From Argopecten irradians (Eukaryota; Mollusca; Bivalvia; Pectinida; Pectinidae), in the NCBI RefSeq assembly GCF_041381155.1, contig NC_091139.1, positions 11,641,905 to 11,705,904 of the forward strand: a DNA stretch of 64,000 nt, in the 5' to 3' direction. Shown piece after piece: positions 26,276 to 57,410 of this stretch. Position 1 is the first letter of the stretch. Every line of letters starts with the position of its first letter. Both the position numbers and the translations under genes were made by a program. A model generated the notes under the pieces. That model was not told the origin of the DNA and ran no database searches. It saw nothing but the letters and a program-made list of their open reading frames with translations.

Positions 26276-27790
26276 TTAAGCATAATATGATTTACACATC
26301 TTGTACACATAGACAACAGATTTTATTCTGAAATCATTCAGTTCTTCTTCACTAATAGTGAAGGAAACATTCCCTCCAATCAATATATGAAATATCTGTA
26401 CATCTGTAAGCGAGTGTAAGATATTAATTATGCAACACCAAAGTTGGTCTCTCAACTCAGAGGTATATGAACATTGTAGAACTAAATGTGTCATAGGGTC
26501 CGTGTACAGAAACCCACATTTATGACATAATTCCATCGTATTCAAACTACGTATAGTTGTAACTATTTTCATTATATAATGTATTATTTCTCTGTATTGA
26601 GGGAACAAAAGCGCTAGCTTCCATAAAGTATAAGGTTTAACTTCGTTATGTAATTCACGAAATCTTCTAGAGTCAGTATCAATTTTCATATGTTCATTAA
26701 AATTATGCTCCTCAAATTTTATAACAGCATTGTAAACTATTTTTTTCCAAACAACATTCTTTCTGAAATTTCCGGTTTCAAAAAATGTTTTTAACTCTTT
26801 ATATAATGAGTACTTGTTCAATATTTCTACTATGTCAGGAATAAATCCCTTTTGGTATGTTCTACCTAGACGTCTAGTAGTAAAAACTTTAAAAACAAGA
26901 GATGTTGGTTTCATTCTACATAATCTTCCAAAAAATAACAATTTTCTGGTGTCTATATACGCTTCAATAGAGGTCCAACCAAGTAATGATGTGCACATAT
27001 CCGTTCTGGTCCTCTTTTCGAATCCCTGTATCGATTTAACAATAAAGTGTTGTGCTCTCTCTAACATTGTAATTTCCGTTCTTGTGAGTTGCCAAAGCTC
27101 GCAACCGTATAAAGCAGATGGATAAACCTTAATTTTGATAATTTTTGCAACAGTTAAGGGGTTAAGGGCACATGGGTGAGCACCAGAGCGGACAATGGAC
27201 ATTGTACCTGACCTTAATTTTTTACAAGCATTCGATGTTCTATCAAAATAATTTTGTTTGGAATTTAATAATATACCAACATGTGGAATTTCTTCAGTCT
27301 GTGGCATAATACAATTATAAAGATAAGCATTATCATACACAGTACAAGTTCTTATCCTTTGATTTGTAAAAGTTACAATTTTGCTTTTTACGGCAGAAAA
27401 TGAAAAACGCCATTTTCTTCTATAATCTTCACAGATTAAAATCATTTTCTGAAGGCTTTTAAAACTGGTGCTAACTAAACAGATATCATCTGCTTGTGTG
27501 GGAACATTAACATTCAAATCTACAATCACTGCACCTAGACCAGAATTCTCTATTTTATTTAATAAATCATTAATAAAAACTAAATACATTTTGGCAGACA
27601 ATGCCCCTCCCCGTTATATTCCACGTTCCATTTTGAGCATGGGAGACTTTAACCCATTATATAAAACACAACTTTCAACATTTGTATACATGCATTTTAT
27701 ATATTTTTATGACCCAATTCATAAAGTTTGTATAGTAATCCAGCATGCCACACGGTGTCAAATGCTTTATTACTGTAACTAAATGACGTA
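26276..27790 (-). mobile_element. LINE remnant: reverse transcriptase C-terminal half
   Basis: A 441-codon frame (27601-26276) carries the second half of a non-LTR reverse transcriptase. It has YLVFINDLL, QADDICLVS (the usual xADD catalytic box, here QADD), the thumb GILL region and a C-terminal Cys/His motif CHKCGFLYTDPMTHLVLQC typical of some LINE clades. Upstream to about 27790 the same protein continues out of frame and with a stop: KAFDTVWHAGLLYKLYELG is readable. Endonuclease and ORF1 are absent, so the copy is 5'-truncated and dead. Clade (CR1, Jockey, I or similar) cannot be settled by eye. It sits between the C1q gene and MTAP. Confidence 0.8.
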
Positions 27791-28614: not shown

Positions 28615-31600
28615 ATGTCGATAAAGGTAAGTTATACAGCTCTGTCTTTGAGAGTCCTTCTTGTTATAGATCATGCAAACTCTGGTAAAATCAGCACCTG
28701 GATATGCACGGCTGATCGATGTTGTCATCTAGAAGTAGAATTAGAAGTTAGAACGAAACAAAACGTAGGAAATGCATGTATGCAGTTTGATTATTGCACA
28801 CTTTTGAATGAAAAAAGTACATGTAGGTACAATTTTTTTTCAAATTCTTAAAATTATGAGACAGGCCGGCCTATAATCCTAAATTAAACCATGCAATTCA
28901 TGAAGTAAAATAAACTGGCTGGATACAATTAATTTAACCAGATCCTAATTAGCATAAGTTGTTGATAAGCTTAAATTTCCTCAGCTACTGCAAGGTCCCT
29001 CTATAAAGGTGTGGGAAACCAAATCAGGTACGACCGACCATCGATTATGTCTTGTCAAAAATTATTCCGATCAAACACGACTTTGACACATACCTGGGTG
29101 TTAGAAGGGGATGTTATTCTAGCTGTAGACGTCCAGTTTTTAACTTTTTAACCATTATTTAATCAGATAGATGCATTTGAATCCAATGTTGACAATTTCT
29201 CGGCTAAAATCGAGCGACATTTTGTAAACTACCGCCGCGCATGCGCCAGTCTCCGAGAACATTACTTGTGAGGCCCATTAGGGGTGATGATATTTTCATT
29301 ATGTTTTGCAGGCCTACAAATGTTCATACAACACATACAATGGATAGACAAGCAATTTGATTATAAATATATATAAAAACATGAAAAAGAGGAAAAGAAC
29401 CTTTTTTTATTTTATTCTTTAAGTTAAAAAGATGTAAAAAAAAAAAAAAACAATACATGTAGTTTGTTTGAAAAACTGTTCAATTCATCATCAGCATCTG
29501 TATTTTTTGGAAAGTTTTATTTTTTATTGTTTTTATTTTTAGAATGATTAATTATTATCTTTTATGTCAAACTTATTTAATTTATATTTATTTGGAAAGT
29601 GCATACATGTGTTTCCATTTTTTTTCAAAACTCAACTGCAGGATTTTTCTGTAGTTTGTTTACATGTACATGTAAGCCCTACAACATTAAACATAATAAA
29701 CCAAGCTAATTATAAAGTTTAAACTTGATTTGAATTGTAGGTGATTTTCTTTGATGTCAAATTAAATTCTGATTGATTGGAAATGGAAGATATTCTTGAT
29801 GCTTTCTTCATCAACACACATTAACATGGTAAAGTTATTTGGAAATGCAGAATATAATTTATATAAAATGTGGCTTGTGTATCGACAGAAGAAATGCACG
29901 TGTATGAAATTTTATTGATATTGATTATAAGTATATAAAGATTATATGTATTGACATATTCATTTATGAATTATAAAAAATATGAGAACAGAGAAAATCA
30001 CGAATAGTTTCTGATGCTAGAATTTATAAGAATATTTCCACAAATTTCCATTCTAAATTATAATGTCAAAGTCAAAATTGTATTACCCATGCGATCTACA
30101 ATTTATAAATATACATGTACTGTGTGCATTGTTAAAAAATGCAAAAAAAAAAAAAATCAATAAAAAATCATGGACAATATGTCAAGACATATTGGAATCA
30201 GACAAGATAAGAGTCATTTACTTAAGAAATATATCATTAATTATGAAAAGAAAACTGATACAAATCATTTATTTATTTATATAGGCCTATATATATATTT
30301 GTTTAATCTTAAATTAATTTCTTACTACCCATTTCATTTTTCAGAATGCTTAAAGAAACTTAAATATTGTGTATTCATTTTAGTGATTTTACTATTTGAT
30401 TTCATTTTAAAAATGACATCGCCAAAATACCCGAATTTTTAGACCTACTCCTTTCATATGACTCATATATGAGGGTCCCCCATGGGGCCTCACAAGTAAT
30501 GTTCTCGGAGACTGGCGCATGCGCGGCGGTAGTTTACAAAATGTCGCTCGATTTTAGCCGAGAAATTGTCAACATTGGATTCAAATGCATCTATCTGATT
30601 AAATAATGGTTAAAAGGTTAAAAACTGAACGTCTACAGCTAGAATAACATCCCCTACTAACACCCAGGTATGTGTCAAAGCCGTGTTTGATCGGAATAAT
30701 TTTTGACGAGACATAATCGATGGTCGGTCGTACCTGATTTGGTTTCCCACACCTTTATAGAGGGACCTTGCAGTAGCGGAAAAGTCAGTCAGAAGGTGAT
30801 ATCTTTTCCGCTACAACAGTAGCTATAATTAGCATAAGTTGTTGATAAGCTTAAATTTCCTCAGCTCCAATACTAGATTATTTCCCCTATTTTCAAATAG
30901 TTTGAAACTTAGAATGCATGAGCTCGATCGGTTGAGCGTCAGACTAGTAATCAGGTCCCGAGTTCGATCCCTAGCAAAGGCAGGTATTAAAGTTATTGTA
31001 AATCCTGCACCCTGTTACATTGGCGCCCACGTAGGGACTCGGGAATTACATACTTCATGATACCTGCGAAGGAATCGTTGTGACCCCTGGAAACTCAAGG
31101 ACGAGTTGTTTCCTAGAGGGGGAGTATCGATGTAACCCTGGTCAATACTAGCCGCAATATATTGCTCGGCTAGAGAGAACTTCTCTTTAGCTCGATCGGT
31201 TGAGCGTCAGACTAGTAATCCAGAGGTCCCGAGTTTGATCCGTAGCAAAGGCAGGTATTAAAGTTATTGTAATTCCTGCACCCTGTTACGTACATAGGAG
31301 ACAAAAATTGTCAAACCAATTTTAATGATTCTTTTGATATTCTAGAGACTGGTGGCCAAGCTAAATTTTACTGTGCATATTTATAACAGTCCTGTATTAT
31401 GTTACTGTCTCTGCACTTCATTGACTAACAATACATGTAGTAACTGGAGACATTCAGTGCAAACCTCATGCTTGGTTGACTGATGTTTACCTGTGTTCTA
31501 TTTTTAGCTTCATAGTAGGTATTAAAGCAATGGTGGTGATTTAGTGTGACTTTTACAAAAATTGAGACAATATCATAAATTTTAAGTTAAGTCCCCTTTG

Positions 31601-34600
31601 GTGTAGTAGTTGTATACTCCTGTATATAATGTTAGTGTAATGTGATGGTGCCATCAAGGATTTATAAGTGAGAAGGACCTGTCACTGTCTCTTTCATACT
31701 ACTATAAATGCCACGCGAGCTAGACGCCTAATGAATCGAGAATAAAATCATTTTTCTCAACAAATACTTGTCTTGTCGTGTCAAATGGAACACCAATGTA
31801 AAGCTTAATAACCACAACATATACGCTAATCCTTGCTTTAAAGACGAAAGATTTAGAAGAAATGTAGTAAATTTTCATTACAAAAATAAGACATCTCATG
31901 AAATGCTGGCCCGCTTCAGAAAGTAGGATGGTTAACCCTGCACCCACAAGCTACATCAATGGTTGCGCCGGTGGATATCAAAGAAAAACCAGTCATAAAT
32001 CCAACGTTACGGATCAGTGGACAAACACAAAAGCCTGACATGTTTGTCCAAAAACCAGAGTAACTTGTCCCTCTCATCTATGTCCTATAATATAGTGCCA
32101 TGTAAAAATTTTAAGCCCTTTTTTTCTATGACAACTCTTTATGTACATGTAAAAGGAGCGGGTCGGTGTGACTTGTACATAGTGTTAAATACGGTCTCTG
32201 TCACTCAGCTGACGGAGCATGCTTCTTTGGCTCAGTCGGTAGAGCCGTAGATTTCCACGCCAGAGACCTGGGTTCGATTCCTGGTCGGGGCACTCGACAG
32301 GAATGTGTATTTTTCCTGTTTTTCTAGATTGGTGCCCAACTAAATAACCCATGGAAGGTGATTAAAGAGTCTTGGGTTGAGATTTAGGAAATCTCAAGAA
32401 ACACAGGGGGAGTAGTGTAAAAGGAGCGGGTCGGTGTGACTTGTACATAGTGTTAAATACGGTCTCTGTCACTCAGCTGATGGAGCATGCTTCTTTGGCT
32501 CAGTCGGTAGAGCCGTAGATTTCAACGCCCGAGACCTGGGTTCGATTCCTGGTCGGGGCACTCGACAGGAATGTGTATTTATCCTGTTCTACATACATAA
32601 ATATGTGTTTTGTTTTAAAAAATTCTAATGTCATTATCAACAGCCAGGATATCTTTCTATAGTCGGAAGACTACCTGACAACTGTTCATGTGTTACCTTG
32701 GATTCAAAATCGAGACCCAGAGTTTGGGGGTTATGTCAAAACATCCCAACCACACCACCAGCGAGGCCCATTGATATTGATTCAACAGATAAAAACTGAT
32801 GTTGGCTATTGGTACCAATTTATATTTTCGGCTATTGGTACCAATTTATATTTTCTGATGCAAGTTTTTATCTTACATCTTGAACTTAAGATAGAAATTA
32901 TCTAATTTTGCTGTAATAATAATAATAGTAAACTTTATTTATTGAGGATGGATTTACATGTTAAGCCAAAGGCTTATCTACCACATGGTCCTCCATCTAC
33001 CACATGGTCCTCCATGTAATTATAATGTACTTATACTTTTATCGTTAGATTGGGATAATTGGAGGATCAGGGCTTTCCAACCCAGACATCCTGAAAAATG
33101 GAGCTGACCAAGAAGTTGACACACCATATGGAAAGGTATAAATATGATACTAACTTCATGCATGTACACACACTCTTTCTATTTGTGTCATTATGCCAAT
33201 TGTTGAAAAAAAATCTCGCACCAGTAGTACTAACACTCCCACTATTGGGAATTATGGTCAAAACTGGCAAGTTTTTATAATGAAACATTTACTCAATAAA
33301 ATAGGATTATTTTTTACTCAATTAAAATAGGATTAATTTGCATGGTATTTTTATATAGATTTCTCCCAACATAATCGTGCAAACATAAACAGATATATTA
33401 TGATTTTAAGATGTAAGCTGTTGTGTATAAAACCATGATCTTGACAATTTTTCAGCCCTCTGACTCACTGAAGGTTGGTGAAATTGCAGGTGTACCATGT
33501 GTACTTCTAGCCAGACATGGTCGCTCCCATTCCACCATGCCAACCAATGTCAACTTTCGTGCCAATGTTTGGGCCTTAAAACAGGTCGGCTGTACACACC
33601 TTGTGGTGACCACCGCATGCGGTTCCCTACAGGAGAATATGCACCCGGGAGAAATTGTTATCCTGGATCAGTTTATTGACAGGTTTGTTGAGGGTTATAG
33701 ATAATCTTTAAACTATTTATAAAAACTCTTTAAGTTCACCTGGACCAAATGGCTGCTGAGCTTGTTCCATGGTATGTGATCTGTTGTTGGTCGGTCCATC
33801 AATATTTTCTTTAAATCGCTACTATACATAGAGTTCTACATGGATTGTTACCAAATTTGGTCAGACACATCCTCTGTGGAAGGGTGGATAGAGTTTATAT
33901 AAGTCTTGGGGTGTGAAGGTCAGGGCCCAATAGGGGAAGTAGAAATCTGGATTGTTACTAAATGGCAAAACATTTTCTGGGGAAGGGAAGCAGAGTTAGA
34001 ATAAATATTGACTGTGACCACCTGGGGAAGTGTGTCCCATTAGAGAGAACTTGTCCAAACCAGCACTTGTCTACCTGGCCTAATTTGATGTCATTTTCCT
34101 TATTAATCAAAGTACATATAATAATTAAAACCTGTATAATATGGAAACCTGTCTATACCAGCCAAAAACACTGTCTCTCAGTGATATGTGCTTTAGACAA
34201 ATCATACAATTGTATGTTAATTCTAAAGGAAAATATTGTAAAGGTGTAGTATGTGTTTAATATGTAAAGTGTGTTTTCTGCAGAACTCAGAAAAGAATAC
34301 AGACATTTTTCGATGGATCAGAACATGCACCCCCTGGTATATGTCACATGCCTATGGCCAAACCATTTTGTACCAGGACTAGCCAGGTAAATAAAAATAT
34401 TTGTTTTTTGGGTTTGCTTATACTGTATAGTTTGCTATTTTTGTATGTCTTTGTGATTTCTACTTATAACAGCTATTACTTATTTTTTCACAAAGACTTA
34501 CAGATTCACAAAAAAATATAATCCCTTTTAAATTTCCCAAATAATAAAAATAAATTGAGTGTTTCATTGTCAAAATACGCATGGATTTTGAATTGTATAA

Positions 34601-37517
34601 AAATATTTTTTATACAAGGAAATGAATCACATGAAACATGAGGATATAATTTTTATAGAATTACGGGTATATATAAAATTATATTGTACTTAAGTGATAT
34701 ATAGCTTCCAATTGGAAATAAAAAAATTTTTAAACAAAAATAAAATAGAAGTTTCTTTATTTGGGATGAAGAAAACTAAATGTTATTTTAACAAAAGATA
34801 TAAAACATTAAAAGAAATTATGGATTAATTTTTCCAGATTTTGTACGACTGTGCCAAAGAACTGTCTATCGGCTGCCATAAAGGAGGCACCATGCTGACA
34901 ATAGAAGGACCTCGATTTTCTTCTGAAGCCGAGAGTAAACTTTTCCATTCTTGGGGAGCTCATTGTATCAACATGACAACAGTTCCTGAGGTAATGAAAT
35001 TATCTCCCCTGTTACACCAATGACGAATAACAGGCAATTGTATTTATTTGAGCACTCTTGATTTATTGATCTAGTTCTGAGGTCACAGAAATAAAATATG
35101 TTGGATTCATAGAGAGGCCTCCATTTTATTCTTAAGCTGATAGTAAACTTTTCCATTTCTGAGAAGGACATTGTATCAACACTTGACAACAGTACCCGAG
35201 GTTAATCAAATTATCTCCCCTGCTAGGTCAAAATTAAAGATTAAATTCAAATGTTCTTTAAGTGAAGTCCATAAGTCATCAATGTTCAATTAAAATATAC
35301 ACTTGTGATATGTTCTAGGTAGAAGTTTCATTTAGATATTTATAAATGTACACCACTTTAAACCTGTGAGACAATATTTTTGTTTCTTATCAGGTAGTGT
35401 TGGCTAATGAAGCAGGACTGTGTTATGCATCAATGGCTTTGGTGACAGACTACGATAGCTGGAGGCCCGACACAGAATCTGTAAGTTACACCACAGGGGT
35501 TTGAGTTTAAATCCCACATTGAGCATTTATTAATTGGCAGTTATGTATATTACAAACTGATGATTTTTCTCTAAATACTCTAGACTTTTTTCACCTCCTA
35601 AACCTGGCACATCCATAAAAGATTTTGGCTGTTGAGACTGTAAAACAAAAACAAACAAGCAAACTTACACATAAGATAAGTAACTGTGTGATATGTGAAG
35701 TGGAATAATGTGGTTGTGAAGCCAATAGTTGCTGTTATCACAAGGAGACAAAAACGCCCATTAGTACCATTCTTGCATGTTATAAACTCAAAGGATGCCC
35801 TGAAACTAACCAAGCTGTTGAGAGATTATAAAACAAACTAAAACTAAACCAATCCATGTGATTGCAATTTAGTGCAGTTATATCAGGTATCGAGTTTATA
35901 CTGAACAGATATAGTCTCCGTTGACATATTTCCATTCCCTTCTTTCTGGCATAGCCAATTTTAAAAATACTTTTCAATATCTTCTCAATAACCATGGACA
36001 TATTGTTGGTCAGTGACTTGCTGAGATATATATCTAAAGGCCTAGCATGTTACTCACAAATGAATAACCTAAACATACTTTCAAGATCTTAGGAATTATT
36101 CCACATTTTTCGCATAACCATGAGGTCAATAATAATATGCACATTAAAAGTTATCTGCCCTTGCAAGTAGGTACTAATTGCTACGCAAGTGTTAATATAT
36201 TTCAGAGAAAACTAAAATTTTTGCCCACAAAGTAATGTCACAATTGATATCTACCAGCAAAAGATATAACACTGTAATATGCAACGATGGAATAGTTGGA
36301 CAAATAACCTTGACCCCCTAAAATATAAATACACTTTTAGCCTGTTATATGGCAGTACAAAGTAAAGACATTTGATCAGCCAAATAACAGGCTAAAATGT
36401 AATTGTATTTGGACAGGCTTGATTTCTTAATTTAGCCTTAAGGTCTTGGAAATGGAATATGTTAGATTCTTTAAATGCTTATACCCAAAACAACAAGACA
36501 TCAACAATCAGTTCATATTCATACCAGGTATTTCCTAACTCACTTAATTTGACCTTTGTTATTGAATCCTTTGGAGGTGGATGGAACCAGAAACTTAGAA
36601 GCATGCTTTAGGATGTTCCACCTTTAATTTATAACCCATTTAATAATAGATAGTGTATGATCAGTTAATCAAAATTATCTTACACATTGTTTTAATCAAT
36701 TCATACAATCAAATATTAGTTCTTTTCTCTTGTCATAGGTAAATGTTGCCAATGTCATGCAGACATTTCAGCTGAATGCTTCTAATGCACAGAAAGTGCT
36801 ACTGAAGGCCATCCCATTGATAGCACAGCAGGACTGGACAGATACAATCAAAAGTAAACAGGTAAGTTATACCAACATACATATGCTCTGGAGTCACTGG
36901 GCTCAAATTAGCTAATCAATTTTAAAAACAACTTCTTCTCAATAACCAATTCAAGAGGCCCAAGATATTTTTTGTCTGCTTGTTGATCTGATTACTGAAT
37001 GGCAGATTAGCTTTGTTGTTTAATTATATAAATGTATAATAAATAAATTTAGAAATTTTAGAAAGAGTTGTAAATGGAGACTTTTGTCTGTAAAACTAAG
37101 CAATCAGTTAGAAGGTTTTACAGAATGTTTACCAGTTAATAACAAAGAAATCAATCTGCAAGCTTATGTAAATTTGAATGCATTCTTAACAAATTAACCT
37201 GCGTAAAAATCACTTGCGAAATATGAAATATTTACAGCTGATTAATATTCACAGATTTAAAAAAAATTCCTATCATTATCAATGATGTGGATGTTAGTTC
37301 GCAGAAATAAACTTTCACATATTTATTGAGATCGCGAAATTCGTGAGAATAAATCGCACACGAAAGAAAGTTGGTTTACAGTATGTAACCTCCTTCCTAT
37401 GTTGAGATAAACGACATTGAGGAGAACCTTTCTAGTAGTACTATAGTTTACCATGATTTTTTTCTATCTTTCCAGGATATGGTCACGTCCAATACCATGC
37501 TACCACATAGTTACTGA
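28615..37517 (+). CDS. MTAP: S-methyl-5'-thioadenosine phosphorylase (MTAP)
   Basis: Eight exons: 28615-28626, 33049-33135, 33456-33682, 34284-34386, 34838-34990, 35394-35480, 36739-36861 and 37476-37517. All junctions are in phase and give 277 residues (human enzyme 283). Exon 1 encodes only MSIK, as the human first exon is also tiny. Motifs of the family: IGIIGGSGL phosphate-binding loop, [48 protein letters not shown] and LVTDYDSW. The enzyme phosphorolyses 5'-methylthioadenosine to adenine and methylthioribose-1-phosphate, in cytosolic methionine salvage and polyamine synthesis. Intron 1 (4.4 kb) holds a foldback element and two miniature LTR elements. A decayed copy of exon 5 lies in intron 5. 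The last exon has 13 codons. Confidence 0.96.
28985..30776. mobile_element. Foldback element with 292-bp inverted arms, in MTAP intron 1
   Basis: Left arm 28985-29276 (ctactgcaaggtccctctat ... acttgtgaggccc) is almost the exact complement of 30485-30776 (gggcctcacaagtaatgttc ... gagggaccttgcagtag). The arms are less AT-rich than the core, with ccgccgcgcatgcgcc. The 1.2 kb core is AT-rich and has no gene. An identical 41-bp sequence, taattagcataagttgttga onward, flanks the element at 28946-28986 and 30826-30866, with an extra 49 bp hairpin segment (agcggaaaag ... cttttccgct) between the right arm and the right flank. Confidence 0.9.
30920..31290 (+). mobile_element. Miniature LTR element (TRIM-like), tRNA-like LTR, family A
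   Basis: Partial 5' LTR (30920-31019), primer-binding-like site TTGGCGCCCACGTAGGGACT, about 110 bp of internal DNA without coding, purine tract agagggggagtatcga, and a fuller 3' LTR beginning TGTAAC (31131) and ending at GTTAC (about 31289). The LTR contains a tRNA-like module: tagctcgatcggttgagcg (A-box-like) and gagttcgatcc (B-box-like). It is a fossil truncated on the left; the LTRs remain very similar, so it is not old. It sits in MTAP intron 1. Confidence 0.72.
32148..32593 (+). mobile_element. Miniature LTR element (TRIM-like), tRNA-like LTR, family B
   Basis: LTRs 32148-32328 and 32416-32593 start TGTAAAAGGAGCGG and are nearly identical, so the insertion is young. A primer-binding-like site TTGGTGCCCAACTAA follows the left LTR, and acacagggggagtag precedes the right one. 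The internal part is under 100 bp and codes for nothing. TACA on both sides (32144-32147, 32594-32597) is a 4-bp target duplication. Each LTR holds a tRNA-like module with ggctcagtcggtagagcc (A box, D-arm) and gggttcgattcct (B box). The element looks structurally whole and depends on outside proteins. It lies in MTAP intron 1. Confidence 0.82.
33725..33960 (+). mobile_element. Fragment of pearl-type element in MTAP intron 3
   Basis: gttcacctggaccaaatggc, ttctttaaatcgctactata, tagagttctacatggattgt, taccaaatttggtc and gggcccaataggggaagtag match the element at 59368-60190 in order. One diverged monomer only; the 3' hairpin is absent. Confidence 0.72.
35085..35222 (+). pseudogene. Decayed tandem copy of MTAP exon 5
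   Basis: About 209 bp downstream of exon 5 the same sequence recurs. It includes gcctccattttattcttaag, tagtaaacttttccatttct, ttgtatcaacacttgacaac, agtacccgaggttaatcaaa and ttatctcccctg, against the exon's gacctcgattttcttctgaa and following bases through its donor and flank. Extra bases and stops break the frame, and the donor gaggtaatg has become gaggttaat, so it should not be spliced in. Confidence 0.8.
35487..35660 (+). mobile_element. Decayed SINE fragment in MTAP intron 6
   Basis: gggtttgagtttaaatccca, atttttctctaaatactcta and cctcctaaacctggcacatc follow the order of the SINE at 41812-42030. The tRNA-like head is largely lost. Confidence 0.5.
36136..36284. mobile_element. MITE, TGCATATTAC family, copy 2
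   Basis: Left arm agttatctgcccttgcaagt then aggtactaattg; right arm gatatctaccagcaaaagat then ataacactgtaatatgcaa. Diverged copy in MTAP intron 6. Confidence 0.6.
37200..37382. mobile_element. Diverged MITE related to 23993-24159
   Basis: The right end cgaaagaaagttggtttaca, then gt, matches the end of the C1q-intron MITE; gcgaaattcgtgagaataaa inside is of the same type. The left end (near tgcgtaaaaatcacttgcga) is blurred. In MTAP intron 7. Confidence 0.5.
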
Positions 37518-37609
37518 AGAGTCCATGGAACGTTTCTAACCTCAGCAAGGACATTTAAAATTTTTACAAAGATCCGTCTTGCAATATATATGTATAGCTA
37601 TTTCGTCTC

Positions 37610-37758
37610 TGCATATTACAGAGTTACTTCCCTTGCGGTTAGGTATCCATTGTGACGTCATTATTTTGTGGTCGTTTTCTCTGTGTATAATGTTATGCTC
37701 ACACATGACGTCACAATCAATAGCCATCCACAAGAGTAGATAACTCTGTAATATGCAA
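37610..37758. mobile_element. MITE, TGCATATTAC family, copy 3, in MTAP 3'UTR
   Basis: Best-kept copy: tgcatattacagagttactt ... agataactctgtaatatgca. Each arm carries tgacgtca next to the loop (ttgtgacgtcatta and catgacgtcacaatc). It begins about 90 bp after the MTAP stop and so is probably transcribed in the 3'UTR, where it could fold into a long hairpin. Confidence 0.75.
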
Positions 37759-38215
37759 CTGTGGAATAGCAGCCTGTGATGTGTTACTCAGATATAAAGA
37801 TTTTCTGCAATATCAACCAATGATTGAAATTTTTGAGTGCCATTTAGTTGAACTTTGTTATCTCGGACTTAATAGTCTATTTTTGATTGCATAATTGCTT
37901 AGTACAGTACACATTTTGTATCAGTATTGAATTGGATCAAGCCCCGGTGAATCATTAAAAGTTAATATGCATTAATTAATATTTTGTTGGCCTGAGATAA
38001 CGTGGTTTGATTCTCATAGTTGTTATATGTGGTTATTGTCTAAAACTGAAGCCTGAAATGTATGGAAACCTTTGATAACCAGAGTAGATTAGACAATGTA
38101 ATCAGAATGCCTTTTACAAAAATTGAAGTTTTGTCTGTACAATATTTCCATGAACCACGAAATCCATGTACATATCAGAGTTTATACTGAAATAATGTAG
38201 AATGTCTTGCGTGGA

Positions 38216-38221
38216 AATAAA
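38216..38221 (+). terminator. Candidate MTAP poly(A) signal
   Basis: AATAAA about 700 bp after the MTAP stop; a second AATAAA occurs near 38627. Which one is used cannot be told from sequence. Confidence 0.4.
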
Positions 38222-38956
38222 ATGTTAAGTTGTGTCTGTATTCCCATTTAATGGGATTCCTATTTTTTTCATAGTTAATATAGAATATGTAATATGAAAT
38301 CTATTAAACTAATTCATTAGGTATTTGATATGCCACTCATGACATGTAAAGGCTTGTGGCAAGGCAAGTTTCGAGTAATTCAACTCTAATAAATTCATTA
38401 TAACACAGCCACAAATATATTATCTTTAGGACATGACCTTGGATATTTTTTGTGCCTTTTACAACACAGTTAAAATAACTTAAATTCAAAGACGAAAGAT
38501 TATTTTGAATATTTTTTTTATATTTTATGAAATCCATCATTCCATGTACATCTTATTTGTATTGGAAGAATAACTCTTGTTACATTTTGGTGGCCTCTCG
38601 CTTTATATGTATATTGACTTTTTGAAATAAAATCTATGCTATAATGAAAACATGTATGTGTATATGATATATGTCTCTTTACTGTATAAATTGATACATT
38701 TGATCTTCAACATCATAATTAATCAGACCTGGTTTCATTGATATGAATGTACCATAGAATTTTGATAATGCATCAATTAGTAACAATACAGTTATTCATA
38801 TAGCTAGTTGAATGCAATACCGTATTCGACCCAATAATTGCCCAGTGGTTTAGAAAATTGAAACAAGACTTCAAAGGAAGTGGATGTGACACCTGCATAG
38901 CATCACAAAAAGTGATTAGTTATTATACTGTCAGAAACAGTTGAAAATATTGTTAT

Positions 38957-39345
38957 TAACTAGGTGAAGTTATCAAATCCCATAAATCTTGCAAATATTG
39001 ATGGATTTTGACCAGTTTCGAATCCATCTAAGATCTCATTGATATAAAGCAATCCACCTGATTTGGTTAAAAGTGGACGATAAATACTAAAGTTATCCAG
39101 CAGAAACTATGGACTTTTAAGTTTTGACAATTTTAAAGTCCTGTAACTTTTGCAAATATTGACGGATTTTGACCTTTATCAAACTCATACGAGATCTCAT
39201 TGATATAAAGCAATATACTAAATCTGTTTGAAATCGGACAATAAATAATTGAGATATCGCATGGAAACCGTTTGCCAGACGCCGACACCGACATAGTGAT
39301 ACCTAAGTGTCGATCGCCCTTGCGTTGCAGGCGACACAAAAATGA
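38957..39345 (+). mobile_element. Truncated element with two ~160-bp monomers and a 3' hairpin
   Basis: gcaaatattgatggattttg at 38992 and gcaaatattgacggattttg at 39151 mark two monomers 159-160 bp apart; gatctcattgatataaagca is shared by both. It ends in gacgccgacaccgacatagt and a hairpin around gtgtcgatcgcc/ggcgacac. The monomer sequence is unrelated to the elements at 8139 and 59368, but the length and 3' build are the same. Confidence 0.68.
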
Positions 39346-39416
39346 AAAGATGCTTACTAAGATGAAATTATTGTAAAAAAAAAGGGCAAACCTATACAGT
39401 TTTGATAGATTTAGTC

Positions 39417-39422
39417 TTTATT
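39417..39422 (-). terminator. Candidate PDCD2 poly(A) signal
   Basis: tttatt on the plus strand is AATAAA on the minus strand. It is the first strong signal after the PDCD2 stop, beyond the tandem arrays. If used, the 3'UTR (about 1.35 kb) would consist largely of tandem repeats. Confidence 0.45.
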
Positions 39423-39684
39423 TAGTTCTTATTGGATCGAATATGGTACCAAACACCAGCACTTTCATTGATCCTCTAGGTAATTCAATGCAGCAGACAG
39501 GATAAAGATCTTGTATGAAAGGGCTGTGATATTAGAAATGTAATAAAAAGTGTGATTAAATGCTCTAAACCTAGAATTGTTTACCAGGTGCCTGGTAATC
39601 ATGATAGACAAATTACCTTGTATAAATAGGAAATTTCAAAAGGTAGAGCCATTTCATACAATACATGTATACATTAACTATGTC

Positions 39685-40460
39685 AATCTCATCACAGTCC
39701 TGTTTCTAGATGTACATATTACAGTCAATGCTGTTCTACATCACAGTCCTGTTTCTAGATGTACATATTACAGTCAATGCTCTTCTTCATCACAGTCCTG
39801 TTTCTAGATGTACATATTACAGTCAATGCTGTTCTACATCACAGTCCTGTTTCTAGATGTACATATTACAGTCAATGCTGTTCTACATCACAGTCCTGTT
39901 TCTAGATGTACATATTACAGTCAATGCTGTTCTTCATCACAGTCCTGTTTCTAGATGTACATATTACAGTCAATGCTGTTCTTCATCACAGTCCTGTTTC
40001 TAGATGTACATATTACAGTCAATGCTCTTCTTCATCACAGTCCTGTTTCTAGATGTACATATTACAGTCAATGCTGTTCTTCATCACCAGTCCAGTCCTG
40101 TTTCTAGATGTACATATTACAGTCAATGCTGTTATTACATCACAGTCCTGTTTCTAGATGTACATATTACAGTCAATGCTGTTCTACATCACAGTCCTGT
40201 TTCTAGATGTACATATTACAGTCAATGCTCTTCTTCATCACAGTCCTGTTTCTAGATGTACATATTACAGTCAATGCTCTTCTTCATCACAGTCCTGTTT
40301 CCTGTTTCTAGATGTACATATTACAGTCAATGCTGTTCTTCATCACAGTCCTGTTTCTAGATGTACATATTACAGTCAATGCTGTTCTTCATCACAGTCC
40401 TGTTTCTAGATGTACATATTACAGTCAATGCTGTTCTTCATCACAGTCCTGTTTCTAGAT
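39685..40460. repeat. 49-bp tandem array behind PDCD2, about 16 units
   Basis: Unit acagtcctgtttctagatgt + acatattacagtcaatgctg + ttcttcatc. Units are nearly identical, with a ctcttc/gttcta subtype and a few partial-duplication units (near 40090 and 40295). The part cctgtttctagatg equals the end of the PDCD2 coding sequence read on the other strand (Trp-Lys-Gln-Asp region). Confidence 0.95.
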
Positions 40461-40761
40461 GAACTCTGGGTGATGGGAATTGTCTCTACAGTATCACAGT
40501 CCTAAAGCGTAGTCCTGTTTCAAGATGTACAGTATCACAGTCCTAAAGTGTAGTCCTGTTTCTAGATGTACAGTATTACAGTCACTTCTGTCCTACAGCG
40601 TACAATGTAGTCCTGTTTCCAGAGGTGCAGTATTACAGTCCTGAAGCGTAGTCCTATTTCCAGATGTGCAGTATCATAGTCCTAAAGCGTAGTCCTATTT
40701 CCAGATGTGCATTATAGCAGTCCTAAAGCGTAGTCCTATTTCCAGATGTACAGTATTACAG
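40445..40761. repeat. Older ~45-bp units between the 49-bp array and PDCD2's stop codon
   Basis: About seven diverged units of the type agtcctgtttccagatgtac + agtattacagtcctaaagcg. The first (40445-40482) continues as gatgaactctgggtgatggg, a copy of PDCD2 last-exon codons (real version gatgaattctgggtgataag at 40795-40814). The series runs directly into the real stop codon. Confidence 0.85.
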
Positions 40762-43700
40762 TCACTGTTTCTCTGCAGCGTAGTCCTGTTTCCAGATGAA
40801 TTCTGGGTGATAAGAATTGCCTATTTGGCAGCTGTTACTACAGGTATAAACACAAAGCGTCCCCCAATCCAGACTGTCGCCGAGCTGGTCAACCTGTAAA
40901 TGGCTCAACATCTGTGGCATCACCTACAATAGTGAATATAACATGAAACATTTCACTTACAAAAGTAATTATAATATATGACATCACCTACAACTGTAAT
41001 TATATCATGTGGTGTCACCTACAACACAAATAACATGTGGCACGTACCATCCACAACACAAATAAAGTGTCATAACCTACAAGAGTAAAAACAACATGTG
41101 GCATATCACCTACAATTATAATAATTATGTGGCACCACCTACAATAGTGGTGACTAGAATATTCAGAAGTCAGAAAAGGCAGGGCCCACAAAGTGAATGA
41201 CCATATTGAGAAACCTTTGGACTTCACACCAGGCAAGTTCCTAATTAATCTCCTTCAACATCATGATTCAGATTGTCTAAAAACCCTTGTTATCCAATTT
41301 TCTTCAGTGAATTATGAAAATTTTGACCCATTTAGGGTTCATGACAGCCATATTGGTTTTTTTTTTATATACACAGACAACCTTTTAGCTAGACTCATAG
41401 ACCTGTAGCATTATGCCAAAACTGACACTGTGAATTTTACTTGCACATTTCTTGAATACCGGTATGTGCATTTAAGAAAATAAGGCTGACTTTTATGGAA
41501 AAAGTCTTACTTGGAATTCAAATTGTCGTTTGGCTCCACAAGAGCATGATGGGATATCTGTTTCCTCTGGGATATGGTCTACTGACACCCATAGTGGCTG
41601 GCCTCCTTTATGGTACCTCAAAACCTAAAAATGGTAAGTAATGATATCCATTGTATTCCATTGCCTTGGATTAGCAAAATGGTTAACGTTGGATATCGTT
41701 ATGAACGAAACAGTATGAAACGATGCTGATACTGGTACTATTGAAGAAATATACTGGTTGTCCTAAAATGAGTAAAAATACTGTATTGGTACCCGTGTCC
41801 AACCCTAATAATAGGGGCCCGGTGGCCGAGTGGTTAAGATGTACCGACATATTACCACATGCCCTCCACCTCTGGGTCGAGAGTTCCAATCCCATGTGGG
41901 GCAGATGCCAGGTCCTGACCGCTGGTCGGTGGTTTTTCTCCAGGTACTCCGGCTTTCCTCCACCAACAAACCTGGCACGTCCTTAAATGACCCTTGCTGT
42001 TAATAGGACGTTAAACTAATCAAACCAAATCAACCCTAATAAGCAAATTGCAATGTGTCACTTAATCCAATAATTTTATATTTACATGCAACAATTCCCT
42101 TCAGTAGATGAAAACTTTCTTATATACCTTATAATTATCACAAATGTTCATGTTAATTATCACAAACTTTACAGTCTTGAAAACCAACAAACTTCAAAAT
42201 ATACACAACCTGATCAGGATTAGTTTTGATTCGTTCCTTGAATTTTCTAAATACTTTGTCATCCACACTTTCTGAGGTTGCCATTTTCTCTAGTTCATTT
42301 TTTGAGGCACCATCTGGTAGTAAACTATCCGCTTTGTCTGATTTTAGGAAATCTTTGTATTCTTGCCACTTCTCATTTTCACCCTTTGTATCACATTCAT
42401 CATCAGTGCTAACATCATCCAATTCCTCTGGTTCTGTGATTAGTTCTAGTTCTGGAAACAACACTCCTTTCACAATCGTTTTGCCTGAGGCATCTACAAA
42501 GTATTGTAATTCATCATTAATTAGGGCTTAATTTTTGATAACTTAAAAAAAGAAATTAGCGTAGATTTAGAAATCACATACCGGTACATCTATTCATGTA
42601 TTGTATTGTAATCCCTTTTTGTGAACTGTTATCAGACTTGCTTTGCGTAATTTTCATAGATTTCTAATACAAAACAAAATCTACTCAATGTTAGCCAATT
42701 TTGCCACGAGCTTTACATGATAATGGTCTTCAAAGCAGACATGGCGAAATTTGCCGGTCCGACGGACATGTCCGGCAAAATTTTACTCAGATCACCTATT
42801 TCAAAATCCGGTCCGGACCGACTGTTTGGCAATTATTGAATACTAGAAGTTGGTAAAAAGTCATCATTTGATTCAACAAAATCGTGTTTTTAACCCCACA
42901 GCAATGTAGAATTAAAACTGCATAGATAATCACCAAAGCAGTTGCCTGGACACTAATAGCGGGAAGTTATGTTTATTTTAAAAATTCACATTAATTTTGG
43001 TCCGGCAAAATATTGTTCGTTCTGGCTTACTCACAGTCCTTGCCAGTCCGAATGTCCAGCCATTTTTTTTCAACTTTCGCGATATCTGCTTCGAAGTTTT
43101 TATAAATTCAAATATATAATTTTGGTAGTGTGTTAAAGAACCTGTGGTATACCAATTATACAAGTTTGTTTAAATCATACCAATCCAATTTTCTTTTCAT
43201 TCAAGTATTTTGATCTCTCTTAATACCACGAACACTGAAACAGACTGTTTGTTTGAATGTTCATGATCAGAGAGATGAAACTAAGCAAAAGTTAACTTGA
43301 GATTGGTAGTCCTGGCCTCATATTTCCGCCTTCTACAACATCAATTATACTGTCTTTAGTCTTGAAATATTGAGAAAAAGGCTTTAAACCTGTTGAGAAA
43401 TGCATTTGGCCCCTATGACCTTGAATGAAGTTGAATGAAGGTCAAGATCATTCGTTTAAGTTTTAACAAATGTGGTACATTCTATATCAACCAATTGCAA
43501 GCTTGCTTTAGAAGTACAGGTCTAATATAGCAGGCCATGGGTTAGTAAATTATTTTTTGAAGCTGTCTTGTGATTTTTTTTTTGGTATTTGTTCTTGACC
43601 TTAAATGAAAGTCACACCTTGATCTTGAATGAAGGACAGGGCAATTCTTTCAAAAAAACTTGAAAGACATACATCTTTTAGGGCTTTTTTCACTTAATTT

Positions 43701-44613
43701 GGAAGGGGCCTTTTAATATTATTTTGGGGAAGAAATTTGCAAATTGGGAAGGAAATATCCAGGAGTAAAATGTATTTTGGGCACTTTGGCATACATTTGA
43801 AATAATTTCCATGGGGAATGGGCCCATTATTTGCCCCAAAAGCCCCTAGAAAAACATGTCTTTGCATATTACAAGCTCAATACTATATCAAAGAGAATTA
43901 GTTATTGCCAGGATGTGAAGATATTACCATCAGTTTTTTTCTCTTTTTAACTTATTTGACCTGTGTGATTGAATGAAGGTAGTGTCATTCATTTGAGTCA
44001 TCTTGGTCATTCATATAGACAAACTTCGTTGATACTACTAGATTTCATATGGAATTGAAAAATTAGTATAACGAGGCTAATTTAGTGTATCTATACCTTT
44101 AGACGAACACGCAGTTTTGTGTCCATTCTTCCAATCGATGACCTGATGTTCTTTACTACAGTAGGAAGCGGAATGACATTTGGCGCATCGTTTTGGTCCA
44201 AGTAGACCACAAACACGGCATAGGTCTGCATCTGGACTAGGGCCAGGGGTAGCTACTTTCTCGTTTGGAGGATCTGGACTGTAAAACTCATTTTGACGAG
44301 GAAGTTGACTCCGGAATACCACAAAATTCAGATTTGAATTTCTTTCTGAACATCCAGGATTCCGACAAACGAAAACGAAAATTGTTCGGTGAAAAGCAGA
44401 CGACACATTGTCATCGGGTGAGTAGACTTGCATTAGAAAGATGACAGGTTTACCACATGTTTTACAATTGATATCTATTGGGAGGTGATTAAGAGACAAC
44501 CATGAGGGTTTCCCACCAACTTTACTGGGGAAATAATGGCTTCGTAGAAAATCTGGACTTGTTTCCTCCAAAAATCCCAACTCCACGTTGTCGTTCGCAC
44601 CATTCGCCGCCAT
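40762..44613 (-). CDS. PDCD2: Programmed cell death protein 2 (PDCD2)
   Basis: Four exons on the minus strand: 44613-44097, 42493-42210, 41624-41511 and 40923-40762. All junctions are in phase (AAA G|AT, CAG|GTT, CAA|GTG), giving 358 residues (human 344). An N-terminal zinc-ribbon-like part with CKTCGKP is followed by the MYND finger at about 132-169 ([25 protein letters not shown]). The PDCD2_C domain follows, with [34 protein letters not shown] and [16 protein letters not shown], ending [12 protein letters not shown]. The family acts as a dedicated chaperone of ribosomal protein uS5/RPS2 (known for fly and human). The start ATG lies in AAGATGGCGGC, a YY1-type motif. Intron 2 holds a SINE; the 3'UTR holds tandem arrays derived from this gene. 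PITHD1 lies head-to-head upstream. Confidence 0.95.
41812..42030 (+). mobile_element. tRNA-derived SINE with 12-bp target duplication, in PDCD2 intron 2
   Basis: tRNA-like head ggtggccgagtggttaagat with gagttccaatccc, body ttctccaggtactccggctt and cctccaccaacaaacctggc, tail ggacgttaaactaatcaaac. CAACCCTAATAA occurs at 41800-41811 and again at 42031-42042. Same family as 10454-10695 and the fragment at 35487. Better kept than those, so more recent. Confidence 0.88.
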
Positions 44614-44814
44614 CTTTTTATTTTGTCATCAAGATCGTTATAACTCTTTTTTCCTTTGACGAATCAATACTTTTAAATTCAAGGTCATTTTTACGCTTTA
44701 AACATACTCGCGTCAAATATTACAAGCACTTGGTGGAATAAGAAGCGAGTAACGTGAAACTTGCAAGTAACAGTGAATTTGAAGATTTACTAACTGAATA
44801 AGGCGTTGTTGAAA
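44614..44814. promoter_or_regulatory. Bidirectional promoter between PDCD2 and PITHD1
   Basis: 201 bp separate the two start codons, which point away from each other, so both promoters and 5'UTRs must fit here or overlap. No TATA box is placed for either gene. On the PDCD2 side the start codon sits in aagatggcggc, the YY1 consensus often found at housekeeping gene starts. The tactcgcgtcaa and aagcgagtaacgtgaaac stretches are the only CG-containing parts. Confidence 0.75.
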
Positions 44815-47800
44815 ATGTCAGGGCATGGTCACAGTCATGGAGGCGGTGGATGTGACGACCATGACCATATTACTGAAGCGGAAAAGGCAGCAGCATACAG
44901 TTTATTTTTGAAAATTGACACACAGAGAGTTGAATGCCTGAATGAAGCTGTTGATGGATCTGGGAAGGATGTCTTCAAACCCTGGGATAAGCGATTAGAT
45001 AAGGAAAAGGTTAAACTTTATGTATTTATTCAACTGGACACTGCCTTTCATTGAAAACATCGTGAAGTAAAGTTTAATATTATATATTGAATGATCAGTG
45101 AAGTGAATGCAGCTGACATAATATTCCATAAGGCACCATAGCCTGAGATACTCTGGCCCCTACCACCAGACTTGGACATTATGACAGATACAGTTGGTAG
45201 TAGACGAAAGGAGTCCACCCTTGTGACCAACTGAGTGCTCGAGGTTACGACTACTGGTAGACACGGTGTGCACGAGTGTTTAGACTACAGGAAGACACGG
45301 GAGTGCACAAGATTTTAGACTACATGTAGACACGGACGTGCACAAAGATTTCAGACTACAGGTTAGGACACGGGAGGTAGCATCTATGTGTGAACTCGGT
45401 GTGTCCAATACAGGTGGACATGGTGTCTCAGGTACTATCCGACCTAGACAGACAATGTGGATTGTGTTACAGTTAGGGCTCGGGGAAGAAAACGTTCATC
45501 ATTATGAAAATAATACACAGAGTGCTCTTAATTCATAAATTATTAGTGTTATATATTATTTTTATTTACAAAATTTACAATTTAGATGTACAGTTTAATA
45601 TAACTAAAATAATACGATATATTTATTAGTATACATGTATAAAACCTATTCACTGCAAAAGTAATAAAGATTAATTTATATTCATTAAGTAAATGTCTAT
45701 TTAAATATATTAAATTCGAGTAGTTTCCCCTTTTCATATCTTAAATTGTCTTTATTACGTTTTTATATAGTCAATGTTTTATGGCGTAAATTGCTTTAAA
45801 TTTATGTATATATAATATTATAAATTTAAATCATGAAATAGTTAAATACAATCATTTTTCAACAAGTCTAATATAAACACTTTGAATTGCGGCAAAAACT
45901 AGAACGGATGATACGTAACCCGCGCCAACTAAGACGACACAATTATTCTGTTCTAAAAGTCTTTTGCGCAACAATAATGCAGCAACGGCAAAAACCAGTC
46001 CTTATTGTGCTTTTGAGACACTTTTTCATTAATTAATTTAAGCTATTCGTAATACAATCATATACCGGGTAATATATAGCTTTTTAAATAAAAAAGATAT
46101 GGTGTCCTAACAATCGGTTTATTCAAGCGACACCCTTGTAGATCGTTCTTTCATAAAATAATCTCTTCTTTTTTGCTTTTTTCAACATGTTGTGGCGTTA
46201 TGATTTGCTCTTCTATGCTTCCTTTATTTGAGTGTTATTTTTGTTTTTTCTGTGTTTTTCAAACTTATTATAATATTTTTCTTGTTATTTTAAGTTCTAA
46301 AAAGGATTGCTACGTTAATAAAAGCTTTATTACATATTTCTTTATTACAAAACTTGTACGTCTTTTAAATGGATCATGCAGAATAAATCCACTTCAACCT
46401 TTATGACATAGCTATAGTCTACCTACAAGTACCCAATTCAGCTTGTTTGATTCGTAATTACTGGTTAAACTCAGTATGCTTAAGATCCTCTACCCCGCCA
46501 AAGTTATCTTGACCGTATATGTGCGTCATGGTCTCCAATAATTATAACTTGTTCAAAACATACAGGTTAGCCTCAGTATCCAGCTACTACAGGTACCTCA
46601 TGGTGACCATCGATAGATGGCCAGAGGGCAGAATTGTTGCCTTCGGAGTTTATGCACGCTTTAATGATATTGGAGCATGGCAGTATCTTATATATAATAT
46701 GTGATTTTAGAAATGTTTCAATTGGAAGTTTTGTGTAAGAACAAAACAAAATATACATTTATCCCGTCTTAAAAAATCATAAAGGTTTATGAGTATTGAA
46801 ACTCAAAATGTACCATTATTATTCAGATACATGTACAAGTTTGAGTTGGTAGAGCCTTGGTAAACATGTACACCGTTTCCCGTGGGGGGGGGGGTTAGAT
46901 TGGGATGAGGTCAAAAAACTAGCTAGGCAAAACATATAGAGAGTGATGTCTGAATTACACCATCAAATATCTGGTCCATGACAGGTCAGCCGTTTGAAGT
47001 GGATCTTGACGGGAGCTGTACAAATGCGTATAGCAATCCAAGCATGTCTGTCATAAAAACAACTTGAATTTACCTAATGAATACATGTTATATATTATAA
47101 ACAAAAATTATTTAGATTAGGTAATTATTCAACATTGTAATTATGGTACTTTATATACATAGTCAATGATAATCAAGGTTTCAGAATATATGTTAATAAA
47201 TCCAGTGTTAAAAAAATAAATTAAATTAAAAAAATAAAAACAGGATATATGGATGAAAATCTGTTTGTCCTAATAAGACTTGAAATAAATGTTTTTATTT
47301 AATTATACACTTGGTATTTTGTTTGATTATTTTTTTATTTAAATATATAAATATTTCATATTATCAACATAAATAAAAGTGCACTACCAGTTAAAATACT
47401 TTTATCCCTATTGAGTACCATTGGTTGTTATATAACTGTTCATATTTGTGTGAATGGAGCGTAAAATGTATTTGTATAGAGAGGGCTGCCACCTAAATAT
47501 AAGTACAGCATGCTATGTATATACATGTAATATATGGTGTTGATAGTCCGAGTTACACTTGACCTGTACCATCCATTGAAGGGTGACCCAAAGAAGGCCC
47601 CAGGCCACACTCTGACCAATGTTAGGATAATTTAGATTATCATATCGTTGTGGTTTGATGGAATCAGTATGAAGTCCATGTGACCATGGCCAAAATGCAT
47701 TCCTAGCCTTGGGTCCTAAAACCTTACGGGCAGAGCATATTTTAAGTGTTACAATTAGACTATTTTTAACATTGTAAATGGATCCCACACTTAGTAAAGA

Positions 47801-50800
47801 AGGTCAGGAATATGATATTGTCAACATGTATCAGAGTTACTAGAATTAAAAAAATTGTGACAAATTCAGAATCTAATTCAAACAACTATGAAGATACAGT
47901 TTTAAATGGATATAGAAGTTTGGATTTATTTTGATTTGACTGTTAAATTTATTATCATGGCTATGTTACATACATTTTTGGCGATCCGGGTCCTGTTGAA
48001 CATTGTTGATATATGCCACGAGCAGCCACATGCCCGGTTACTAAATTTTTGCATTTCTTAGAGCCAGTGCATACAGTATTTTCCTCAATCGGTTGACACA
48101 ATATAATGAAAATTTCTAATGCCCAGTTTTAACGTCCCCTATGGCACGATTTCACATATTTACCCAGAAGCATTGCAACTGCGCCCAGTTTTCCCTGTAC
48201 GCAACGGTTATACCGTATAATACTTTTGGTTAGGATTAAAAACTATGTCGAGCCACTCTTGCCGGTTAGGAAAAACTTTATTCCATACATACTAAGTGAA
48301 ACATTTTTATGAAGAATTTTATTTGATTATGTTTATCATGATGTACCTTACTTGTATTATGCCCATCAAGAAATATTTATCTATCCTTATATAAAATAAA
48401 ATTAATTTGTCGAATAAAATATCTCTTTGCCATTAAAAATATAATGTTTCTGATCGCAAAAAATAATTCTATCTGTCAAAGTCCATAATAAGACCTAGCT
48501 GAATAAATACATTATTTATCTCGACAGCATAACTCTGTGGCAACATCATCTAGTTCCTGTCCTATGGGTCTTGATGAATTAGCCCATATTTACCTGGATC
48601 ACGATGTCCACCAGTAGTGGAACACCGTTTTCACATGAAGTGCACCTACTGTGACTTCCTGTAGGTCTAAATCGTGCTGCATCTCCATGTCAACCTGTGA
48701 GACTAAAAACCTCGTGCACTCCGTGTCTACCTGTAGTCTTAACCTCGTGCACTCCTCGTCCACTCGTAGTTCACACCGTAGTCTCGTGCCACAATGTGTA
48801 ACCTTTATGAGTCTACTAAGCGAAATGTAGATGTCCCTGGTTTAGGGCCAGGAGCGCAGATAGTAACTCGAAAAACATTGAAATAAGCAGAACACCCGTT
48901 TTTGAGTATCTGGTCCAGGTCATCTCCGATTCAGGACTATTTACAAAATATTACCACCAACAATCGCCCACTTTCCCTTAGGTCCTTTCAACATATGAAT
49001 AATTTATCTACTCATAAGCCATCTATTTCAACAAGCATGCAGGTTTCGATTTGGTATCAACACAAGTAGTTTTTTTCCCTTTTCCGCAACTTTAAATTAA
49101 TTCCCCTCGAAGGCACCAATGTCCACAAGCACCTTAGTGTTAGCTTAGGTCGTTTACATTGTAGCAGATTTCAGTTGTATATATAGTGATACGGTCGCCT
49201 TCTAGCTTTGCGCTAGGGGGAATTTCCCTTTAGCTCAGTCGGGGAGAGACGGACCAGTAAGTCCGGGGTCACGGGTTCAAGCCCGGCTGGCGTCACACTA
49301 TACTCTCGCCCTATTACATTTGGTACCATAGACCACTCCAAGTGGAAGTATTAGAGGCTTCCTTGGAGAGAGAACCTGGGTTGGTCTGTGTTTGGGGGCG
49401 AATACATTTGGGGGGAGTAGGGTAGCAGGTTTTAATTATACATAGTGATTAATGTTCGCCTTAATTCTAGCTTAATAGGCACTGGAATCTCTTTAGATTA
49501 GTCAGATCAGTGGCGGGACCAGCAAGTCTGGGGTCGCGGGTCCGAGCCCGGCTTGCAGCATACTTCTATCACCTTGTTACAACATAAATGTGATTGATCA
49601 TTCTACATGAAATGTACCTGATACAGAAATACATTTTGAAATACAAAATTACGTTCCTTCTACATGAAGTTTAACACTATCAGAATGTTTCTTAGTATCA
49701 ATAATATGGGTGTAGACGTTTAAAGTTTGGGTCTAGCTGGTATAGAATGTAAGATACAGAAGGTGGTTTTTGGGGGCCATTTTGAAAATCAATATGGCGG
49801 CGGCCAGGGGGAGTTATTTTTTGGTGTCCATTTTTTTCCTGAAACCGGTGTCCTAAAGAAGCCATATGCAAAGTTTCATGCTTTCTTCAAACTTTGAACG
49901 ATTTTGCAAAAAATTTGACCTTTGAGCTGCTCCACTAATATAGCTTTGTTGTGCTGAATATGCAAAATGACTATACGAAAATGATTCTGACAGCTATTGC
50001 AAACTATTTCATCCCCTAAAATTTACTTCCTTGATTTTAAAGTAGCAATATGTTTGGCCACTTCAAAAGGTCATCCATGATGGTATTTTATCTGAGCCTC
50101 TGAGAAACAGGGTGATAATGATTGTCTATATTTTAATTGGATTTGAATCCTTGATTAGCTACCTGGTGGATGCCAGCGGTTAAATTGACCTGATTCAGAA
50201 CTCTTAAATCTAGTTTTTCCCTTTCTTTATTTAGTCCTGTAACATCTAATTGATTGACATGTTTTAATTGTTTTTTATAGTTTGTGGAAAGTGATGCTGA
50301 TGAAGAACTCCTGTTTAACATTCCGTGAGTGTTTTCTTTCTTAACTCATTATGCATATATCAAATTTTGATAGTTCATAGTTAATTTACTTTGTTGTGCT
50401 CTATTATAGCTGGTATATATGATGAGTATATACAATGTACCTTGGTAACTTGTACATTATATAAATATAATATCTTGGGAACCTTGAATAACATGATTAG
50501 CAGATTATTACTATTTTAAGTATGCTCTTCAATTCAGATTCACGGGCAGCGTAAAGTTAAAGGGGATTATCATTATTGGTGGAGAGGAGGATACCCACCC
50601 TAACCAAATGAGGATGTGAGTATTAAAATAACACAGTAATACTAGTACTATAGAGATGTAGTGTTATCTTCCATAAACAGATGAGGATGTGAGTATTTAA
50701 CAACAGTAATACTTGTACTATAGATGTGTAATTTAGAGTTATCTACACTAAACAGATGAGGATGTGAGTATTTAAATAACAGTAATACTAGTACTATAGA

Positions 50801-57314: not shown

Positions 57315-57410
57315 TATTTAGCACGCTTATAAGTCAAAGACCAACTATAGACTAATTTATCTCTGTATATTAGTCTATAGTGGGTCTTTGACTTATTAGC
57401 GTGCTAAATA
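57315..57410. mobile_element. Palindromic MITE (copy in first UTR unit)
   Basis: tatttagcacgcttataagt, caaagacc... faces ...ggtctttgacttattagcgt, gctaaata. Arms of about 45 bp and a ~10 bp loop. Confidence 0.8.

Follow-up and report, generated by a model that had tools for sequence, protein, structure and literature searches.

The window (the whole 64-kb stretch of DNA analysed here, with a GC content of 34%) carries three elements, called E1 (30921-31290), E2 (32148-32593) and E3 (49160-49581), which are very probably three Helenus-type TRIM insertions in an animal genome, with tRNA-derived sequence in the LTR and presumably moved by way of an RNA polymerase III (Pol III) transcript and the proteins of a Gypsy element. 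Helenus elements are TRIMs with tRNA-like LTRs described from six animal phyla (Kojima, 2024, PMC10886601), and the description is repeated in a 2026 meeting report (PMC12859917). Three miniature LTR elements had been proposed at these places in an earlier, sequence-only reading of the same DNA, whose coordinates proved right within about one base. The three copies differ from one another and lie inside 19 kb of one genome.

Architecture and surroundings of the elements

The plan attributed to the elements, paired LTRs around a non-coding interior, is borne out in all three (Table 1), with interiors of 87-111 bp (about 103 bp in E3) and with none of the 20 open reading frames (ORFs) of at least 110 aa in the window falling in E1-E3. 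The full LTRs have the proposed length of about 160-180 bp, but the left LTR of E1 retains only 99 bp. E2 is the cleanest of the three, with TTGGTGCCCAAC and GGGGGAGTAG at opposite ends of its 87 bp interior. The 4-bp target duplications (TSDs) reported for two elements were found again, as a perfect TACA around E2 (32144-32147 and 32594-32597) and an exact ACAT around E3 (49156-49159 and 49582-49585); no TSD was found at the flanks of E1. Given an LTR identity of 116/147, E3 is an old insertion, with a TSD that is still exact; its LTR pair is too diverged for a blastn search at E 1e-5 and was aligned separately. Such a search (blastn, E 1e-5) found no further copies or solo LTRs of E1-E3 in the 64-kb window.

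Both ends of the interiors have the signals that were first noticed there, namely the purine tract GGGGGAGTA ahead of the right LTR in 3/3 elements and, in each of them, a primer-like site with TGG 1-2 bases downstream of the left LTR. The sites of E1 and E2 resemble the complement of the tRNA-Lys 3' end. At the TGGTACCA of E3 no match was obtained with tRNA-Lys, the sole tRNA compared, and we take tRNA-Leu to be a possible primer there. With a primer-like site, a purine tract and, in two of three cases, a TSD, the paired repeats behave within the window as those of LTR elements do.

Table 1. Positions of the features of E1, E2 and E3 in the window
Feature	Position	Strand	Basis
E1 left LTR, 5'-truncated, start within A-box, U3 missing	30921..31019	+	95/99 aligned positions identical to right LTR
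E1 primer-binding site, tRNA-Lys(CTT)-like	31021..31041	+	19 matches, 1 mismatch, 2 gaps over 22 columns vs complement of tRNA-Lys-CTT 3' end
E1 polypurine tract GGGGGAGTA	31118..31126	+	sequence
E1 right LTR, TGTAAC...TTACG, 160 bp	31131..31290	+	
E1 right LTR, inverted repeat over A-box start	31168..31192	+	palindrome 4/1000 shuffles, fold energy 6/1000, fold-energy rank 4 of 131
E1 right LTR, A-box to B-box module	31188..31241	+	box pattern; no Rfam tRNA match up to E 10
E2 left LTR, 181 bp	32148..32328	+	173/178 aligned positions identical to right LTR
E2 left tRNA-like sequence	32221..32292	+	Rfam RF00005, 31.9 bits, gathering score 29
E2 primer-binding site, tRNA-Lys-like	32330..32340	+	10/11 vs tRNA-Lys
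E2 polypurine tract GGGGGAGTA	32406..32414	+	sequence
E2 right LTR, 178 bp	32416..32593	+	alignment to left LTR
E2 right tRNA-like sequence	32489..32560	+	Rfam tRNA 25.2 bits, under gathering score
E3 left LTR	49160..49318	+	alignment to right LTR
E3 left LTR, inverted repeat over A-box start	49212..49234	+	palindrome 7/1000 shuffles, fold energy 1/1000, fold-energy rank 5 of 130
E3 left LTR, A-box to B-box module	49231..49283	+	box patterns; no Rfam tRNA match up to E 10
E3 primer-binding-like TGGTACCA	49321..49328	+	sequence
E3 polypurine tract GGGGGAGTA	49411..49419	+	sequence
E3 right LTR, decayed	49422..49581	+	116/147 identical to left LTR (alignment boundaries one base off)

The hexamer TACATA is present in each of the three cases, either at the insertion site or across it (31291-31296, 32594-32599 and, rejoined, 49155-49159 plus 49586). 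It directly follows E1 and E2 and belongs to the pre-insertion site of E3, the right flank of which reads ACATAA when taken alone; in E2, the symmetry of the target site is centred one base off the TSD. These flanks may possibly point to a target preference of the integrase; a literature search on TACATA as a gypsy integration target site found no paper.

Other repeats occur in the surroundings. Inverted repeats with arms of 331 and 382 bp, which align in pieces (293 bases at 98% and 41 at 100%, blastn), bound a 1.9 kb stretch (28946-30866) that ends 54 bp before E1 and may be a DNA transposon of the type that has long terminal inverted repeats. Direct repeats of about 800 bp (56667-57465 and 57731-58543), 96% identical and with 265 bp between them, represent either an LTR-like spacing or a tandem duplication. 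Long tandem arrays are found at 4836-7758 (69 bp unit), 39689-40461 (49 bp), 50597-53978 (78 bp) and 19288-19964 (30 bp); the length of the 69-bp unit is divisible by three, and its array gives ORFs of more than 200 aa on both strands. An autonomous Gypsy partner was sought by a Pfam scan covering 7 of the 20 window ORFs of at least 110 aa, in which the only reverse transcriptase match, in ORF 26276-27613 (- strand), reached 22.4 bits and thus stayed under the cut-off of 29.6. By Pfam, ORF 25232-25654 (+) has a C1q domain and ORF 44077-44625 (-) a MYND finger. The C1q domain and the GC content of 34% are compatible with a bivalve host but are no proof of one.

The tRNA-like module and the relatedness of the elements

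An A-box and a B-box, said to be carried by the LTRs, are present in five of the six but not in the right LTR of E3, where the pattern has no match. The pattern was composed after inspection of E1-E3 and has five matches in the 64-kb window, all of them within the three elements, against 0.00 expected (100 shuffles); combined with TTGGYRCC, it matches the left LTRs of E2 and E3, again with 0.00 expected. A tRNA-like fold, looked for in each LTR, is supported by Rfam in both LTRs of E2 but not in E1 and E3 (Table 1). Since an Rfam tRNA match is limited to E2 and ARAGORN, run with the bacterial code, found no tRNA genes, the module looks like a promoter relic and not like a working tRNA gene, as was likewise concluded for most Helenus families in their description (PMC10886601). 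No match to 5S rRNA was obtained in E1-E3 in Rfam scans up to E 10.

That the elements do not match each other in overall sequence is a fair statement outside the module, given that no two of them are linked by blastn at E 1e-5 and that interiors and downstream parts stay within the shuffle range. When whole LTRs are aligned (E1 right, E2 left and E3 left), each pair scores above all 500 shuffles, chiefly via the module; as proof of one LTR ancestor these alignments, which cover three of the six LTRs, were rejected, the module carrying the signal once the LTRs are split up. In pairwise comparisons of the LTR parts with 2000 shuffles each, the score of the module, the best conserved part between elements, was reached by 6 (E1-E2), 0 (E1-E3) and 35 (E2-E3) shuffles. 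For the upstream part, taken to the base before the A-box, the counts in the same order were 1198, 17 and 26, and they changed to 1527, 476 and 28 when this part ended 7 bases earlier, the upstream similarity being moderate for E2 and E3, and for E1 and E3 only with the seven A-box-adjacent bases counted. No similarity beyond shuffles was seen in the downstream LTR parts (1051, 235 and 1988 of 2000) or in the interiors (295, 910 and 493 of 2000).

These part-by-part counts suggest common descent of E3 with E1 and of E3 with E2, and leave common descent of E1 and E2 unsupported outside the module. It is possible that the three LTRs captured tRNA sequence separately, as opposed to inheriting it from one ancestor; separate capture has been proposed by Kojima for Helenus as a whole (PMC10886601). 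A common interior structure is not claimed, because the fold of the interior deviates in E3 only (z of -0.2 in E1, -0.5 in E2 and -2.3 in E3).

Proposed life cycle and rival explanations

In the life cycle that we propose, the tRNA-like module in the left LTR would be the start of Pol III transcription, which would continue across the short interior and enter the right LTR. An autonomous Gypsy element would supply the proteins that take up this RNA, and a cellular tRNA (Lys in the case of E1 and E2) would prime it. After copying by strand transfer of the usual LTR kind, a Gypsy integrase would insert the product, giving rise to the 4-bp duplication; TSDs of 4 bp are those of Drosophila Gypsy elements (PMC3276498).

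The left LTR of E2 contains T5 runs at 32310 and 32319, where an early Pol III stop would be expected. In the stretch that begins with the left tRNA-like part and runs to the element's end, TTTT (overlapping starts) occurs 0 times in 370 bases of E1, 4 times in 373 of E2 and once in 356 of E3. A depletion of TTTT is not convincing with these counts, and its scarcity in E1 and E3 is weak evidence because only about two would be expected at this base composition. The T-runs that break up the left LTR of E2, together with the lack of a tRNA-model match in E1 and E3, speak for a rival view in which the elements are ordinary TRIMs transcribed by Pol II and their tRNA-like part is a SINE2 fossil that does not act as a promoter; moreover, Pol III activity of Helenus is, by the statement of the paper itself (section 4.1), not experimentally validated (PMC10886601). 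We nevertheless regard Pol II transcription as unlikely, with boxes A and B recognisable in five of six LTRs, with the conservation between elements being best from box A to box B and, as a weak point when about two are expected, with no TTTT in E1 and a single one in E3. That separate SINE insertions or tandemly duplicated tRNA pseudogenes mimic LTR elements is hardly credible even though it is mainly in the tRNA-like module that the elements are significantly similar to one another, since this module, far from being inserted in some copies only, occupies the same position in the two LTRs of each element in the window (the left LTR of E1 starting inside it), the LTR pairs of E2 and E3 reach well past it on both sides, exact TSDs lie just outside the TG-starting LTRs of these two elements, and a primer-like site and a purine tract mark the interior ends.

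Returning to the Helenus-type cycle with a Pol III transcript, the best of all gapless inverted repeats in the LTR spans the A-box start in four of the five full LTRs (E1 right, E2 left, E2 right and E3 left), a region picked after inspection and in three elements only; the right LTR of E3 has only a weak inverted repeat. The fold energy stands out in E1 and E3 (Table 1). In E2, left and right, the palindrome score was reached by 27 and 29 of 1000 shuffles and the fold energy is unremarkable (211 and 232 of 1000; ranks 47 of 152 and 34 of 149), and by fold energy the repeat is not the top-ranked stretch of its LTR in any of the four. As read from the sequences, the E1 and E3 repeats differ by one pair altered on both sides and one altered on a single side; the two elements may be homologous at the repeat and, for this reason, would not be independent support for a hairpin.

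In tRNA-type promoters, transcription starts some 8-18 bases upstream of box A, which would place a Pol III start within the inverted repeat; only at the 3' LTR, next to TTT, would the transcript then include the complete hairpin. The hairpin, the 3' arm of which is the A-box start, and the adjoining TTT might then form a terminator that works in the 3' LTR and is silent in the 5' LTR, a proposal that we consider a long shot. Nascent RNA structure helps Pol III termination at T-tracts in yeast (PMC9278858), but the TTT of the elements is short for a terminator and is situated within the 3' arm. The truncated left LTR of E1 starts at the same place as the repeat, which would fit a copy of the RNA start and, equally, a plain deletion. 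In the main text of Kojima (2024, PMC10886601), the one text searched for them, the terms "hairpin", "palindrom" and "inverted repeat" are absent. If true, the hairpin terminator would equip the RNA with a short terminal repeat that strand transfer could use and would account for the failure of the first terminator to stop a Pol III LTR element, and the formation of the RNA terminal repeat would become directly testable.

Place among known TRIMs

Outside animals, four exact LTR patterns gave 0 matches in viral contigs. A further pattern scan of viral contigs gave 23 loci, with all 23 matches overlapping ARAGORN tRNA genes and 4/23 having a direct repeat nearby; another gave 29 matches at 28 loci, five of the 29 being followed by a B-box, each near a tRNA gene, and four having direct repeats nearby. 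The 28 loci show no resemblance to E1-E3 (blastn, E 0.01). A scan of prokaryote-genome contigs gave at least 119 stretches, and among the matches listed in a blastn of E1-E3 against 142 collected loci there is one locus alone (L064), across 44 bases of E2. E2 also matched 13 phage records, at an annotated tRNA in 6, at an unannotated place in 6 and at a protein of no known function in 1.

The proposal of a TRIM with a tRNA-derived Pol III promoter in its LTR fits the features examined, but not as a novelty: the class is already known, having been named and described as Helenus in 2024, and the remark in the sequence-only reading that no named animal family has a tRNA-like module in the LTR was out of date (Kojima, 2024, PMC10886601). 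As described there, animal Helenus elements are 311-1263 bp long, have TRGCY and YGG as box A and GGTTC as box B, Gypsy-like primer-binding sites (PBS) to tRNA 3' ends including Lys, and 4-bp TSDs; 51 families come from five pteriomorph bivalve orders, the bivalve primers including Lys and the PBS regions resembling those of Gypsy elements. The same paper compares Helenus with SINEs, coins "TRIMp3" for Pol III TRIMs and offers ancient SINE capture by an LTR as a hypothesis for its origin.

E1-E3 share with Helenus, and especially with its bivalve families, the tRNA-like LTR sequence, a PBS including Lys, a polypurine tract, a 4-bp TSD, several families per genome and the size range of 311-1263 bp, and no examined feature differs in kind, the comparison being with the published description. 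All three are short and non-coding with two LTRs (the left one truncated in E1) and a polypurine tract; boxes A and B are found in 5/6 LTRs with a full tRNA model match in E2 only, a PBS complementary to a tRNA 3' end in E1 and E2 (Lys-like), and a 4-bp TSD in 2/3 elements. The gaps in this likeness are E1 and E3 without a tRNA-model match, E1 without a duplication and the E3 primer site without a match to tRNA-Lys.

Other known TRIMs are less close in the features described for them. In Cassandra, another TRIM, the LTR likewise includes a Pol III promoter, but this is derived from 5S rRNA and the element belongs to plants (as described in PMC10886601). Ajax is an animal TRIM whose LTR has a small-RNA promoter; unlike that of E1-E3, this promoter is 5S-derived, and Ajax has a 5-bp TSD and comes from two nemerteans (PMC10886601). 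The biv-TRIM is, like E1-E3, a bivalve TRIM, with an interior of 77-80 bp and a polypurine tract that is mostly GGGGAGA (Satovic, 2019, PMC6934838); its TDRs measure 202-218 bp, tRNA similarity is reported for the interior only, without a clear PBS, and "polymerase III" goes unmentioned in the available text of that paper. E1-E3 thus represent the rediscovery, from raw sequence, of the kind of element published as Helenus.
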